DNA of 43,634 nucleotides, taken from contig NZ_JAGGKQ010000024.1 in NCBI RefSeq assembly GCF_017873815.1, positions 1-43,634 on the forward strand, given 5' to 3'. Each line of letters starts with the position of its first letter. Positions within the stretch are counted from its first letter, which is position 1. Below, one piece after another: positions 29,870 to 37,906 of this stretch. Both the position numbers and the translations under genes were made by a program. The stretch comes from Halorubrum alkaliphilum (GTDB taxonomy: Archaea > Halobacteriota > Halobacteria > Halobacteriales > Haloferacaceae). The notes beneath the pieces are model-generated. The model was not told where the DNA came from. It worked only from the letters and a program-made list of their open reading frames with translations, and made no database searches.

Positions 29870-30358
29870 TTAATCGTTCGGATCCGACGAGCCACCGGTC
29901 AGTTCGTCGACGCCGTACTGGATAAGATCCTCGCGCCACGCTTCGATCTCTCCTTCGAGGTCGATGACTTCGGTGTGAGTACGAAGATATTCGATAGTCT
30001 CCGTATCGTCAACTGACGTTTCGTCGGTGCCGAACTGCTTGAGAAGCGACCGTATTTCGTCGTCGTACGCGAACCGGTATCCGTTGAGAAAATAAAATAC
30101 GGTCGTCGTGTTGAGAGCTGTACGCTTGTTCGCGTCGACGAACGGATGATTTGCTACGAGGAGTCGAAGAAGATGAAATGCTTTCTCGTGAATCGTCTCC
30201 GGAGCGGCTCCAAAACTACCGTCTTCGATGTAATTCAGGACGAACTCGATATCACCACGGTTCTGCACGCCAGACGGCGTGTCAGAATACTCCGAGACGA
30301 TGTCGTCGTGAATGGCGAGAACATCCTTCACTGACGGATACCAGAACGAATCAGCCAT
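29870..30358 (-). CDS. doc: Doc-family (Fic fold) toxin
   Basis: The 162-aa product has HPFVDANKRTALNTT (residues 71-85), matching the Doc motif HxFx(D/N)(A)NKR, with FWYPSVKDVLAIHDDIV at the N-terminus. In phage P1, Doc phosphorylates EF-Tu and blocks translation, while Fic enzymes add AMP; which activity applies here cannot be told from sequence. It overlaps nothing and is probably cotranscribed with the small gene downstream. Its upstream gap to the next gene is 102 nt. Confidence 0.85.
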   Translation of the reverse strand: MADSFWYPSVKDVLAIHDDIVSEYSDTPSGVQNRGDIEFVLNYIEDGSFGAAPETIHEKAFHLLRLLVANHPFVDANKRTALNTTTVFYFLNGYRFAYDDEIRSLLKQFGTDETSVDDTETIEYLRTHTEVIDLEGEIEAWREDLIQYGVDELTGGSSDPND

Positions 30359-30460: not shown

Positions 30461-31369
30461 CTACATCCCCACAACGAGCCGGTCTGTCAACTCCTCGATT
30501 TCCTCAGCTTCCCTGACAGCGGACACCCACCGGTCCGGAAGCTGTGACGCTCCGAACCGCGCACCGGCGACTGCGCCAGCAATCGCTCCAATCGTATCGG
30601 TATCTCCGCCGCGATTGACCGCCGTCACGATCGCTTCCTCAGCACTGTCCGCGACGAGGCCATCGTGGAGTGCCGTCTGCAGCGAATGGACGACGTACCC
30701 TGACATTTCCAGCGTGCCGGGTGAGTCGCCACGAGCGAGTGGTTCGAGCGCCGTCACGAACTCCTCAGGAGCATCTGAACTGACGTAGTCGAGGGCATCC
30801 TGTAACGGCGTGGCCGCGTCTTCGAGTAGGCCAGCTATCGTGAGGTTCAGAATCGCGCAGCCCTCGGTACACCGCGGGTCAGCGTGCGTGATCTGGGAAG
30901 ACTGCCGACTCACTTCGGTGAGTCGGTCCCAGTCCGTCGTGTACGGGATGGCGAGCGGTGGACACCGCATTACACTCCCATTCCCTGCGTTCTGGCCTTC
31001 AGGACTGCTCTCCCAGACCTGCTGGCCTGCCTCGTCCCACGAATCGCCGCGTTGGAGGCGGCTGAGCGACCGCCTCGTCATCCCCCCTATGTCGAACGGG
31101 CCACTATCGTACCACGCAACGAACCGCTCGGCAATGTCCGCCGGATCGAACTCTTGTTGCTCGGCGAGACTTCGTGCGATACACAGCGCCTGCTCGGTGT
31201 CGTCCGTGATCGTCCCGGCGGGCTGATTCCACGTCCCGTGCCCGATCATCTCGTTGAGCTCCCCGTGTTCACGCTGGATATCGGACTCGGACTGAAATTC
31301 GACTGGCCGGCCAAGCGCGTCCCCACACGCCAACCCGAGCATGACTCCACGGACACGATCCGGATTCAT
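30461..31369 (-). CDS. ADP-ribosylglycohydrolase
   Basis: The 302-aa product is of the DraG family: MLGLACGDALGRPVEF, PAGTITDDTEQAL (metal-binding TDDT), NAGNGSVMRCPPLAI, and AVNRGGDTDTIGAIAGAVAGA carrying the second metal-site Asp pair. It removes ADP-ribose from protein or small substrates and is expected to be cytoplasmic. The partner transferase is not in the window. It is 102 nt upstream of doc on the same strand. ATG 31369 is chosen because MNPDRVRGVMLG begins the family core; 31378 adds MLR. Confidence 0.9.
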   Translation of the reverse strand: MNPDRVRGVMLGLACGDALGRPVEFQSESDIQREHGELNEMIGHGTWNQPAGTITDDTEQALCIARSLAEQQEFDPADIAERFVAWYDSGPFDIGGMTRRSLSRLQRGDSWDEAGQQVWESSPEGQNAGNGSVMRCPPLAIPYTTDWDRLTEVSRQSSQITHADPRCTEGCAILNLTIAGLLEDAATPLQDALDYVSSDAPEEFVTALEPLARGDSPGTLEMSGYVVHSLQTALHDGLVADSAEEAIVTAVNRGGDTDTIGAIAGAVAGARFGASQLPDRWVSAVREAEEIEELTDRLVVGM

Positions 31370-31412
31370 ACGCAACACAACGATGACGTCCGAGAAAAGG
31401 GTAGGGTGGTCG

Positions 31413-31682
31413 TCACTCGTCGGGTTTCGATCCGGTACGGAGGGTCTCCCGGTACGCGCCCCGCGCTTGATACATCTCCACTCGTTCCGCTTCCGTCATC
31501 GTATCGTGTTCGTCCGCATCGTAGAGCGGGAGGTCCTCTTTTTCCGGCATTGCCATCACCTGTCCGAGCGGATAGCGTTGCTCGTAGTAGTTCTCTAACA
31601 CCCAGTCTTCGCCGTGTTCGTCAACGGCTTTCTGAATGTACGGGGCAGCTTCCGGGTACTCGTCGGCGAGTGTCTCAGTCAT
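31413..31682 (-). CDS. Small acidic protein of unknown function
   Basis: The 89-aa product is rich in Glu/Asp and Tyr (ADEYPEAAPYIQKAVDEHGE and WVLENYYEQRYPLG). It looks like a plasmid- or element-encoded haloarchaeal protein but I do not recognise it. It lies 43 nt upstream of the glycohydrolase gene on the same strand and divergent from the RecA-like gene, with 166 nt between. Confidence 0.6.
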   Translation of the reverse strand: MTETLADEYPEAAPYIQKAVDEHGEDWVLENYYEQRYPLGQVMAMPEKEDLPLYDADEHDTMTEAERVEMYQARGAYRETLRTGSKPDE

Positions 31683-31848
31683 TGGGAGTCGTGTGGTGGT
31701 AGCGTTGTGTGGTTCTGTGGGTCTATGGGTGCGGGTCAGGCGTCAGGGGATTCGGCGAACGAGTTGTTCTGGCTGTCACTGTTCCACTTCCAGTTCCACT
31801 CCGCGTGTATGGCTCACCCCTTTGAATATCACGCGGCAGGTAACGAGT

Positions 31849-32538
31849 ATGAACACATCTCAACGACAATCACCCGTGGAGTTACCGGAACTGGATACCG
31901 GACTCACGCTCGTGGACGTGGGTTCGGATCTCGGCGTAACCCCAGTCCAGTCGTTACTGCTTGACCGCGTGTTCGCCGGGGACGGCGACGCGTACTGGGT
32001 TGACGCGGCCGGCACGGCACAGACCACACGGCTTCGTGAACTCGCCCCCGACAAGCGGTACCTTCACCGGGTACACGTCGCTCGCGGGTTCACCGCGTAT
32101 CAACAAACGTCGCTGCTTGACCGGCTCACCGGAGACCGCGTCACGACCCCGAGCGTCGTGGTTGCGACCGGGATCGACCGGCTGTATCGAGACACCGACG
32201 TACCGGCGACCCACGCGCAGGATCTGTTGGTCCGAGCGATCGCCGCGCTCGCACGCGTTGCGCGTGTTCATGACGTCCCGGTCGTCGTGACACGATCGCG
32301 TGCCGACGAGTTCACGCGACCGCTCGTGAATGCAGCGCAGACACATCTCCAGTGGGAGGACACGCAGTTCGGGCCGCGATTCACCGACGCGGCCGGCGAC
32401 GTCGAGACGCTCGTGTATCACCTTAGCGACGGGTGGGTGCAGACGACGCTCGCGTACTGGCAGGAAGTACTCACCCATCGAGCACGGATGCACGACGCGT
32501 CGGTCGTAGGTGAAGAGGCGACGTCGGGGAGTGTCTGA
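31849..32538 (+). CDS. RecA/RadA-fold protein with lost Walker motifs
   Basis: The 229-aa product can be aligned by eye with the RadA core: LVDVGSDLGVTPVQSLL (25-31, in place of the Walker A GxxxxGKT; Lys is Val30), YWVDAAGTAQTTRLRE, RVHVARGFTAYQQ (as in RadA VARAFNSNHQ), and SVVVATGIDRLYRDTD (Walker B Asp is replaced by Ala), then VPVVVTRSR. It therefore probably cannot bind ATP normally and may be a structural partner. ATG 31849 follows an A/T-rich TTTGAATATC. It overlaps the next gene by 1 nt (TGATG). Confidence 0.7.
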   Translation: MNTSQRQSPVELPELDTGLTLVDVGSDLGVTPVQSLLLDRVFAGDGDAYWVDAAGTAQTTRLRELAPDKRYLHRVHVARGFTAYQQTSLLDRLTGDRVTTPSVVVATGIDRLYRDTDVPATHAQDLLVRAIAALARVARVHDVPVVVTRSRADEFTRPLVNAAQTHLQWEDTQFGPRFTDAAGDVETLVYHLSDGWVQTTLAYWQEVLTHRARMHDASVVGEEATSGSV

Positions 32539-32819
32539 TGGGGCGAACCACCCCGACATACCGCGACACGCTGCGCGCGATCGAGGACCGCTGGGGGCCG
32601 TACCGCCGGACGCTGCGCCGCCGCGATCAACCGCGATTCGACCAGCTGTTCGTCTACGCCCGCACCCACGCCGACGCGGCCGGGATGTTGAATCACGACG
32701 ACCGGTTCGCACCTCTGCTCGTGAGTATCGCCATCGAGCAGGAACGCCGGATCGACGAACTCGAAGCCCACATCACCGAACTCGAAAACCCCACCAGTCC
32801 CGATTGTGCTGACCGTTGA
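32538..32819 (+). CDS. Small linker protein of the PolB cassette
   Basis: The 93-aa product begins MGRTTPTYRDTLRAIEDRWG, has RRRDQPRFDQLFVYART and ends in a helix IEQERRIDELEAHITELE that may form a coiled coil. It has no family I recognise. Its first codon overlaps the RecA-like stop (TGATG) and its end overlaps the polymerase start by 14 nt, so it is coupled on both sides and probably works with both. Confidence 0.65.
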   Translation: MGRTTPTYRDTLRAIEDRWGPYRRTLRRRDQPRFDQLFVYARTHADAAGMLNHDDRFAPLLVSIAIEQERRIDELEAHITELENPTSPDCADR

Positions 32820-35019
32820 CTTCCACTCCTCTGGTGACGTCGTTCACTGGGCACTCACCGACGACGGCGTCACCCGCACGGTCCACAGCGAGTACACGCC
32901 GACGCTGTTCGTCGGTGACGCAGTCCGTGACTTGTACGGGCGGCGCGGCGGCCCGACCCCAACACCACCGGACCGTGACGGACTGTCGGAGTCGCTCACC
33001 GATCTTCAAGCGTTCCTCACCGGGCAAGACGCAGTTGTCGACATACAGTGTGAAGCCCACCGGCAGACGTTTCGAACGGCTCCGCGGCCGCTTCTCCGGA
33101 TCGACGCGGCCAGCGTAGACGCCGTGCGACGCATCGCACAGCGCGTCCAGCAGTTCAACGGCCCGGCCGAGTACACGTGTTACAACGTTGATCTGACGCC
33201 GCAGTTCCGGTACTGCCTCGAAACCACCACACCGGCGAGCCCAGACCGGTCCGTCCGGTCACTCCGTACACTCACGCTCTCGATCCCACCGCACAAAGCA
33301 GGACCCGACGCCCTGTCACACCTCACGATCGACGGTGACGCCGCCGGGCCCACACCCGAAGCCACCGTCACCGCCGTTGACCGAGCCGTCCGCGAACGCG
33401 ACCCTGACGTCATCGTCGTGTCCACGGCGAAGCTCGTCCCGGTCCTGTTCGACGCCGCCGACACGCACGACGTACCGAACTTTGAACTCGGCCGCGCCCC
33501 CGGGTACACGAAACTCGCCGGGGAATCCACGTACACGAGTTACGGGCAAGTCGGGCACTCCCCGGCCCGGTACACGATCCCCGGCCGCGTCGTGATCGAC
33601 GAGTCGAACACGTTCTTCTACCACGAAGCCGGGCTGCCCGGCTGCCTCGATCTCGTGAACCGTGCCGGACTCCCGCTCGAAGAACTCAGCTGGGCGTCGA
33701 TCGGGCGCGTGCTCACCGCCATGCAGATCCGTGCCGCCCGCGACCGTGACGTCCTCGTCCCGTGGCAAGCCTGGCGACCGGAACTCTTCAAACCCGCAGC
33801 CACGCTGGACGCCGCCGACCGCGGCGGCACCACGTTCGCCCCCGCAGTCGGCGTTCACGAGAACGTCCACGAACTGGACTTCGCGTCGCTGTACCCGAAC
33901 ATCATTCGAACCCGAAATATTTCCCCGGAAACCGTTTGTTGCGGGTGCTGCGACACTAACGACGTCCCCGGTCTCGGATACTCGATCTGTGAGGCCGACG
34001 GGTACCTCCCGACGGTGCTCGGCCCGCTCATCGACGCGCGCAGCCGCATCAAAGACCAGATCGAGGAAACGACCGACGACGTCGAACGCGACCGACTCGA
34101 CTCAGCGTCGTCAGCGATCAAATGGATCCTCGTCTCCTGCTTCGGGTACCAAGGCTTCTCAAACGCGAAGTTCGGTCGGATCGAGTGCCATGAAGCGATC
34201 AACGCGTTCGCCCGCGACATTCTCCTCGATGCGAAAACCGCACTCGAAGACGCCGGGTGGCGAGTCGTCCACGGCATCGTCGACTCGATCTGGGTGACAC
34301 CAACCAAGGATCGTGAACAACGCAATCTCGAAACGGTCGCCGCCGAGATCAGCACCGACACGGGTATCGAACTTGAATACGAATGCGCGTTCGACTGGGT
34401 TACGTTCTGCCCGATGCGTAACAGCGAGTCTGGCGCACTCACACGGTATTTTGGAAAGCGACGTGATGAGGCGTTACCCGTGTCGGAGGCCACGCTCGGT
34501 GATGCGATCAAAACCCGCGGGATCGAAGGTCGTCAACGCTCAACGCCCACATGGGTTGAAGACGTACAGGCGGAAGCCCTTCGCGTGTTCGATAAAACAC
34601 GATCACCAGAAGCGGTGTGTGACGTGTTACGCCGTACACTCACGTCATTACGCAACGACGATGTTGATCCAGAGCGACTCGTCATCGACAATCGCGTGTC
34701 AAAACACATCGCCGATTACACGCACGAAACGCTTACCGTTGCCGCACTCAAGCGAGCCACACTGAACGGGACCGGGCTGTCACCCGGACAGACCATCCAG
34801 TACGTCGTCGTCAACAACAACGCACACGGTACCGAACGAGTACGGCTATCGTACGAGGACATCACCCGATACGACACTGACTGGTACGCCAACGCCGCTA
34901 TACGAGCTGTCGAAAGCGTCCTGGCACCGATCGGGTGGCGAGAGGGAGAGATTCGAGACTACCTCACCGGCACAACGGATCAGACACTAACCGCATACAG
35001 TGAACGCACTGACTCCTAA
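32806..35019 (+). CDS. Family-B DNA polymerase with degenerate exonuclease
   Basis: The 737-aa product starts at GTG 32806. Motif A is HELDFASLYPNIIRTRN (Asp358). Motif B reads KWILVSCFG (439-447), where canonical K-x3-NSxYG has Val for Asn and Phe for Tyr. Motif C reads HGIVDSIWV (Asp493), keeping the second Asp of YGDTDS and losing the first. The exonuclease-I FDIE and exonuclease-II YNxxxFD patterns are missing (TLTLSIPP and VVSTAKLVPVLF occupy the spots). A Cys cluster C378-C395 follows motif A. It may still extend DNA without proofreading. PolB2 is the usual haloarchaeal name for a second family-B enzyme, but this is not confirmed. Confidence 0.85.
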   Translation: MLTVDFHSSGDVVHWALTDDGVTRTVHSEYTPTLFVGDAVRDLYGRRGGPTPTPPDRDGLSESLTDLQAFLTGQDAVVDIQCEAHRQTFRTAPRPLLRIDAASVDAVRRIAQRVQQFNGPAEYTCYNVDLTPQFRYCLETTTPASPDRSVRSLRTLTLSIPPHKAGPDALSHLTIDGDAAGPTPEATVTAVDRAVRERDPDVIVVSTAKLVPVLFDAADTHDVPNFELGRAPGYTKLAGESTYTSYGQVGHSPARYTIPGRVVIDESNTFFYHEAGLPGCLDLVNRAGLPLEELSWASIGRVLTAMQIRAARDRDVLVPWQAWRPELFKPAATLDAADRGGTTFAPAVGVHENVHELDFASLYPNIIRTRNISPETVCCGCCDTNDVPGLGYSICEADGYLPTVLGPLIDARSRIKDQIEETTDDVERDRLDSASSAIKWILVSCFGYQGFSNAKFGRIECHEAINAFARDILLDAKTALEDAGWRVVHGIVDSIWVTPTKDREQRNLETVAAEISTDTGIELEYECAFDWVTFCPMRNSESGALTRYFGKRRDEALPVSEATLGDAIKTRGIEGRQRSTPTWVEDVQAEALRVFDKTRSPEAVCDVLRRTLTSLRNDDVDPERLVIDNRVSKHIADYTHETLTVAALKRATLNGTGLSPGQTIQYVVVNNNAHGTERVRLSYEDITRYDTDWYANAAIRAVESVLAPIGWREGEIRDYLTGTTDQTLTAYSERTDS

Positions 35020-37084: not shown

Positions 37085-37906
37085 ATGAAGGCCCTCCCGA
37101 AGTCGCAGATTCTCCGGTTTACTGAGAAGGCGATTCATCTGGCACGCCGAGCGGTTTCTCGATACTCCTCGAAATTCTCTAAACACTGCTATACACTCCC
37201 TCAGCACGCTGTTCTGATCTGTCTCAAAGTGCGGAAGAACATGACCGATCGTGGTCTGCTTGACGAACTGATCGAGATGCCACGCATCCGTCGAACCCTT
37301 GGCTTATCCGAACTTCCTGCGCCTTCAACGCTCTGTAAGGCGTTCAACCGGCTTGATATGGCTGTGTAGCGTGTTATATTGACTCTCTCAACGACGCTAC
37401 TTCCGACGAGCGGCGTTATTGGAGTTGATGCATCAGGGTTTGACCGCAGTCACGCTTCGAAACACTACACGAAACGCGCTGAACTCACGATTCAGCAGCT
37501 GAAGGTGACGTTACTGGTCGATGTGAAGGTGAACGCAATCCTTGATTTACACGTGACGACGACACGAAAACACGATAGCCAGATCGCTCCATCGTTGATC
37601 AAGCGCAATCCCGGTGATATTGAGATTCTGCTCGGTGACAAGGGCTACGACGACCAGAAAACCAGGCGACTTGCCCGACAACATGAGGTTCGGCCATTGA
37701 TTAAGCATCGTGGGTTCACGCCACTCCACCGGGCATGGAATGTGCGCTTGGACACAGATCTCTACGGGCAACGGAGTCAATCAGCGACGGGTAACTCAAC
37801 GCTCAAGCGGAAGTACGGTACGTTCGTCCGATCGAGACGCTGGTGGAAGCAGTTCCGTGAACTCACCATCGCCTGTCTCAGTCACAATATCGACCGATCA
37901 CTCTGA
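37085..37906 (+). pseudogene. IS5-family transposase with internal stop
   Basis: One frame runs 37085-37906 (274 codons) and is interrupted only by TAG at 37367-37369, where relatives have Trp (LDMAV-stop-RVILTL). The product has GVDASGFDRSHAS (first Asp), LLGDKGYDDQ (second Asp) and RSQSATGNSTLKRKYG, where the catalytic Glu of the common ETVNS motif has become Ala. Two lesions suggest that this copy is inactive. Confidence 0.8.

Follow-up and report, generated by a model that had tools for sequence, protein, structure and literature searches.

What is the role of three overlapping genes on one contig of Halorubrum alkaliphilum, which we analyzed as a single stretch of 43,634 nucleotides (the window)? 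The original prediction, made without database searches, was that they resemble an archaeal mutagenesis module: a RadA-like protein, a small protein, and a DNA polymerase. We find that the locus is a complete iRadA-PPB2-PolB2 mutasome operon of a Halorubrum-type haloarchaeon, where iRadA is an inactive RadA-fold protein and PPB2 is the small helical protein. The prediction was right, and the module that it described is already known; it is this copy that is new. Makarova et al. 2014 (PMC4104785) described the operon, and Timinskas et al. 2025 (PMC11791011) characterized the PolB2 mutasome in silico. A review also points out that Haloferax volcanii has a radA-like gene close to polB2 (PMC7776575).

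The genes overlap exactly as first described: TGATG at 32536-32540 joins the first two, and the second and third share 14 nt (32806-32819). The list of open reading frames includes a longer frame for the first gene, with a start at 31636, but we favor the ATG at 31849 because of where its homologs start and because a TATA-like element lies 20-29 nt upstream (Table 1). All three genes are under purifying selection: when compared to near orthologs and to paralogs within the same genome, they had dN/dS ratios of 0.09-0.28, so the trio is not a chance set of open reading frames.

Table 1. Features of the operon, its neighbors, and related loci. Coordinates without a prefix are positions in the window.
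Feature	Location	Strand	Description
Doc-type (death-on-curing) toxin family gene	29870..30358	-	
ADP-ribosylglycohydrolase gene	30461..31378	-	Divergent from the operon
Tandem direct-repeat box	31782..31800	+	TTCCACTTCCAGTTCCACT, a variant of TTTCACTTTCA; common to 11/11 Halorubrum-type operons
TATA-like element	31820..31829	+	CTTTGAATAT; conserved CCTTTKA-type block
iRadA (ORF1)	31849..32538	+	229 aa from the ATG at 31849
Former Walker A, GSDLGVT	31921..31941	+	ORF1 residues 25-31; lysine absent
Former Walker B, VVVAT	32155..32169	+	ORF1 residues 103-107; Asp of RadA LLIVDS replaced
PPB2 (ORF2)	32538..32819	+	93 aa; arCOG07300-type PolB2 partner; starts MGRTTPTYRDTLR
PolB2 (ORF3)	32806..35019	+	737 aa; GTG start
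Motif A catalytic Asp, D358	33877..33879	+	Intact and invariant; motif ELDFASLYPNII; aligned to PolB motif A
Motif C, I491-V492-D493 (HGIVDS)	34276..34284	+	First Asp of DxD replaced by Ile
C-terminal tail, DQTLTAY	34978..34998	+	Degenerate, PCNA-binding-like; Gln missing at the canonical place
Transposase-like gene	37085..37906	+	In two frames, apparently broken
Second trio	C27:17677-21619		
Third trio	C18:70-2957		Ends abruptly at the contig edge
Lone PolB2	C49:1243-3384		More distant
PolB2 fragments	C29:2513-2887, C42:24-389		
Gene between PPB2 and polB2 of C27	L016:3643-4384		229-aa protein
Putative DEDD-type exonuclease gene	L076:4404-5051, L056:3988-4635, L035:2878-3522, and 12 further loci		After PPB2; RNase_H_2
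TumE-like + DUF7342/HTH pair	L035:3574-4662, L087:4587-5734, L019:3897-4885	-	
Small-protein families preceded by a radA-type box	L119:1501-1830, L132, L138, L146, L154, L156, L158, L159		86 aa (zinc-ribbon-like) and 58 aa

The linkage of the three genes, which the original prediction expected to be conserved, was surveyed across the order, in 69 genomes. The same 34 of them contain PPB2 and iRadA, and all 34 also contain PolB2. Of the 49 PPB2 genes, 46 are preceded by iRadA and followed by PolB2, all on one strand; we accepted iRadA within 3 kb and PolB2 within 9 kb, and most of the distances were at most 160 nt and 250 nt, respectively. The other three PPB2 genes are each missing one detected neighbor. 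Similarly, 44 of 45 full-length PolB2 genes have PPB2 upstream.

As a single sequence, iRadA has a weak match to Rad51 in Pfam, and when we used hhalign to compare an alignment of iRadA to the single RadA sequence of its own genome, the result was also weak (20% probability). However, a 25-row profile of iRadA matched structures of RadA and Rad51 in the PDB (E = 9e-12), which settles the homology. The AlphaFold2 model of iRadA (pLDDT 75, pTM 0.72) is similar to yeast Rad51 (VIA Z 19.9 over 183 residues, rmsd 2.5); residues 9-200 of the model align to residues 165-394 of Rad51, so iRadA lacks the N-terminal domain. The Walker A lysine is lost in all 25 relatives, none of which contains GK[ST], and the Walker B aspartate is also lost in all 25, mostly with alanine or threonine instead. 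Structure prediction and profile search thus agree with the proposal of a Rad51/RadA fold without ATPase residues for the first protein. In the NCBIfam scan, iRadA scored well below the cutoff for the RadB family (22 bits versus 172). A separate RadB-like gene, with an intact GPPAAGKT, is found in the same genome. We also considered whether QTTLAYW in iRadA might bind PCNA, but we dropped this reading because the glutamine ends a core beta strand in the AlphaFold2 model. As for the second protein, all 20 aligned relatives of PPB2 share its N-terminal MGRT, which Timinskas et al. 2025 (PMC11791011) give as the signature of PPB2.

The third protein matches Pfam DNA_pol_B and NCBIfam NF004418 (940 bits), and its AlphaFold2 model (pLDDT 79.6) resembles archaeal PolB (Z 25 over 650 residues, rmsd 4.1). 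Family B was the sole polymerase match: the Pfam and NCBIfam scans identified no Y-family or C-family polymerase. PADLOC's match of PolB2 to a homing endonuclease covers the polymerase part, so we took it as family-B polymerase homology. In a profile alignment to PolB from Pyrococcus abyssi, the DIE of Exo I is aligned to non-acidic residues, the aspartate of Exo II is gone, and Exo III cannot be aligned. These results uphold the view of this protein as a family-B polymerase with an intact motif A and without an exonuclease signature. Overall, we found no intact ATPase residues in iRadA, no active exonuclease site in PolB2, and no loss of linkage across the order, which are the three points on which the original prediction was most exposed.

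The original prediction overlooked a change in motif C. In the profile alignment, HGIVDS lies opposite YIDTDG of Pyrococcus PolB, which places IVD where DTD would be, and all 30 haloarchaeal PolB2 proteins that we aligned have IVD. The first aspartate of DxD is replaced in most PolB2 proteins, and the Sulfolobus enzyme has IID (PMC11791011). The loss of this aspartate might mean that PolB2 is catalytically dead and that the three proteins form a complex with a structural or regulatory role at replication initiation or at stalled forks, as suggested by Makarova et al. 2014 (PMC4104785). It would also fit with the location of polB2 next to orc1/cdc6 in many haloarchaea, including the lone PolB2 on contig C49 of this genome, which adjoins an Orc1/Cdc6-like gene. 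However, the motif A aspartate and the second motif C aspartate are invariant in 30 of 30 aligned haloarchaeal proteins, dN/dS is low, and Sulfolobus Dpo2, which has the same substitution, is nevertheless the source of targeted mutagenesis. We therefore consider it unlikely that PolB2 is dead.

Two other parts of PolB2 may contact partners. First, a conserved D(K/R) motif in a loop of PolB2 contacts PPB2 and is a published hallmark of the mutasome (Timinskas et al. 2025). In our alignment, which covers haloarchaeal sequences, the candidate residue D265 is invariant; the next residue is mostly glutamate and is arginine or lysine at L030, L031, and L101. Second, the replicative polymerase of the same genome (PolB3) ends with a PCNA-type motif, QTGLGSFM, and the tail of PolB2 resembles it except for the glutamine. 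Of 77 haloarchaeal PolB2 proteins, 70 have the pattern L..[FY] within their last 18 residues. Judging from this similarity, the tail may be a weak clamp-binding tail.

The region upstream of the operon suggests how it might be regulated. When we aligned the sequences that precede 11 Halorubrum-type operons, which have otherwise unrelated flanks, a conserved block emerged: a tandem box (CCACTTYCASTTYCAC), about 10 nt, a GGCTCACCCC stretch, and, 20-30 nt ahead of the ATG, a TATA-like element. In the window, the TATA-like element fits with a leaderless transcript, and it probably acts as the promoter. The box is similar to the 11-mer TTTCACTTTCA. Boubriak et al. 2008 (PMC2556686) reported this motif for Halobacterium, where it precedes the TATA box of radA1, top6B, vng17, and vng280, all induced by UV-B. 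In the window, the box has two mismatches to the 11-mer, and all 11 operons have a site with at most two mismatches, which has a chance of about 0.9% per random 131-nt stretch. Furthermore, radA of H. alkaliphilum has a perfect TTTCACTTTCA at 55 nt before its start, which is similar to the distance for the operon's box. That the operon shares its box with radA suggests regulation by DNA damage. Because the paper on the UV-B motif (PMC2556686) does not mention polB2, the link between the box and polB2 appears to be new, within the literature we examined. We also considered the Sulfolobus hexamer ANTTTC; the core ACTTTC is common to both, but the haloarchaeal TTTCACTTTCA is a closer match.

A search of 52 genomes from the genus gave about 50 matches to a degenerate 17-mer version of the box, versus 3 for a reversed control. 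Most of the cases that could be read precede mutasome operons or either of two families of uncharacterized small proteins, of 86 aa (zinc-ribbon-like) and 58 aa; neither family has a match in Pfam. In the operon on contig C27, there is a second box (GCACTTCCACTTCCGCT) directly upstream of polB2, by about 70 nt. The UV-B-type box is absent from the most widespread subgroup of haloarchaeal operons, which is on plasmids. Another conserved block, CCTGAAACGCGGAAGCG...GGCTTATC, with GAAAC repeats, lies upstream of iRadA in plasmid-subgroup loci (L036, L038, L051, and others).

The genome contains three of these trios, along with the lone PolB2 and two fragments (Table 1). Multiple copies and fragments in one genome might be expected if the trio were mainly a plasmid-borne or mobile cassette that serves the replication or maintenance of the element, instead of damage tolerance by the host. 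Many relatives are indeed on plasmids (164 plasmid records), and the flanks of the operons are not conserved. But when we searched viral contigs with the polymerase profile, we found no relative; several relatives are chromosomal, such as the one on the Salinibaculum chromosome (L049); and the promoter box shared with radA points to damage regulation. A role in serving mobile elements seems slightly less likely still than a dead polymerase. Among the neighbors in the window, the ADP-ribosylglycohydrolase was considered as a partner and rejected, as it is near the operon at just three loci (the window, L017, and L029). Genes from a Doc-type toxin family and for a transposase-like protein are also nearby.

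In other haloarchaea, the operon sometimes includes additional genes. Of 80 haloarchaeal loci, 15 carry a gene for a protein of about 215 aa that lies 50-70 nt after PPB2 on the same strand; one of these copies is truncated. The protein matches RNase_H_2 (PF13482) above the cutoff, and D10, E12, D103, and D186 are invariant in ten sequences; by motif, these residues form a putative DEDD active site. Across the 69 genomes, PPB2 adjoins every intact high-scoring copy (five in total) and one that is degraded, while the weaker paralogs lie elsewhere. On the PolB2 tree, the presence of the exonuclease requires five changes, of which three are forced by well-supported branches. We did not detect a copy in the H. 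alkaliphilum genome, and we found no mention of the gene in the main text of Timinskas et al. (PMC11791011). Possibly, this protein is a detached proofreader that acts in trans. More tentatively, and at somewhat less than even odds, the Halorubrum mutasome might belong to a small TTTCACTTTCA damage regulon with the two small proteins, and operons in other haloarchaea might have gained the DEDD protein as a separate 3'-5' exonuclease, so that fidelity would be modular.

Other genes also separate PPB2 from polB2. In the operon on contig C27, the intervening foreign gene encodes a 229-aa protein of unassigned family with hydrophobic C-terminal stretches. A TumE-like gene and a DUF7342/HTH gene, which may form a toxin-antitoxin pair, recur on the opposite strand between PPB2 and polB2, and a similar pair is on contig C42.

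The operon shares with the published PolB2 mutasome its gene order and linkage, the small MGRT protein, an inactive RadA-fold subunit without the N-terminal domain, and a PolB2 that has lost its exonuclease residues and has an altered DxD. It differs in that the polymerase is longer (737 aa versus 555 aa for Sulfolobus Dpo2) and in having the UV-B-type box of the Halorubrum subgroup, the degenerate PCNA-like tail, and three operons in one genome.

In bacteria, ImuA-ImuB-DnaE2 also combines a RecA-fold protein and an error-prone polymerase in an operon, but the polymerase families differ. The original prediction drew this analogy, which holds for the general layout of the operon but is otherwise loose; the published comparison is to E. 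coli Pol V (UmuD'2C-RecA). It is highly improbable that the trio is a new cassette of the ImuA-ImuB-DnaE2 type that is unrelated to PolB2 mutasomes: a RecA-fold protein, a small protein, and a polymerase do share one operon, but there is no match to a Y-family or C-family polymerase, and the testable hallmarks of the PolB2 mutasome are present. The Pol V mutasome likewise comprises an error-prone polymerase, a RecA-family protein, and a small subunit, but its RecA is active, its polymerase is from the Y family, and its small subunit is also from another family. A published analogy to eukaryotic Pol zeta (Rev3-Rev7) is that it is a multisubunit family-B extender with a dead exonuclease; its accessory subunits are different, and none has the Rad51 fold.

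Our explanation for the locus as a whole, to which we assign a probability of about 0.88, is that it encodes a damage-induced PolB2 mutasome that carries out translesion extension together with iRadA and a trimer of PPB2. DNA damage would probably induce the operon from a promoter with a box like that of radA. The proofreading-deficient PolB2 would then extend distorted or mismatched primer ends past lesions, so that the damage is tolerated at the cost of mutation. iRadA, which is predicted to be unable to use ATP, would dock on PolB2 much as RadA docks on the next RadA in a filament, and the PPB2 trimer would insert one MGRT arm near the active site of PolB2. The published model for relatives is a heteropentamer of PolB2, iRadA, and a PPB2 trimer (1:1:3) (Timinskas et al. 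2025). For Sulfolobus PolB2/Dpo2, a function in translesion synthesis has been demonstrated, and this polymerase is damage-induced and the source of damage-targeted mutagenesis. For the copy in the window, we infer damage induction, assembly of the complex, and translesion synthesis by analogy; in the literature, we found no demonstration of activity, expression, or translesion synthesis for a haloarchaeal PolB2. Knockouts of polB2 are viable in Halobacterium and Haloferax (no phenotype was given), which fits with an accessory role.

These results imply that the error-prone PolB2 complex of Sulfolobus is also widespread, and under selection, in halophiles, which have good genetics and intense exposure to UV. 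Because the promoter box ties the operon to the UV-B motif of radA, induction is directly testable. The exonuclease that is occasionally found in the operon also raises the question of whether some archaea tune mutation by means of a proofreader in trans.
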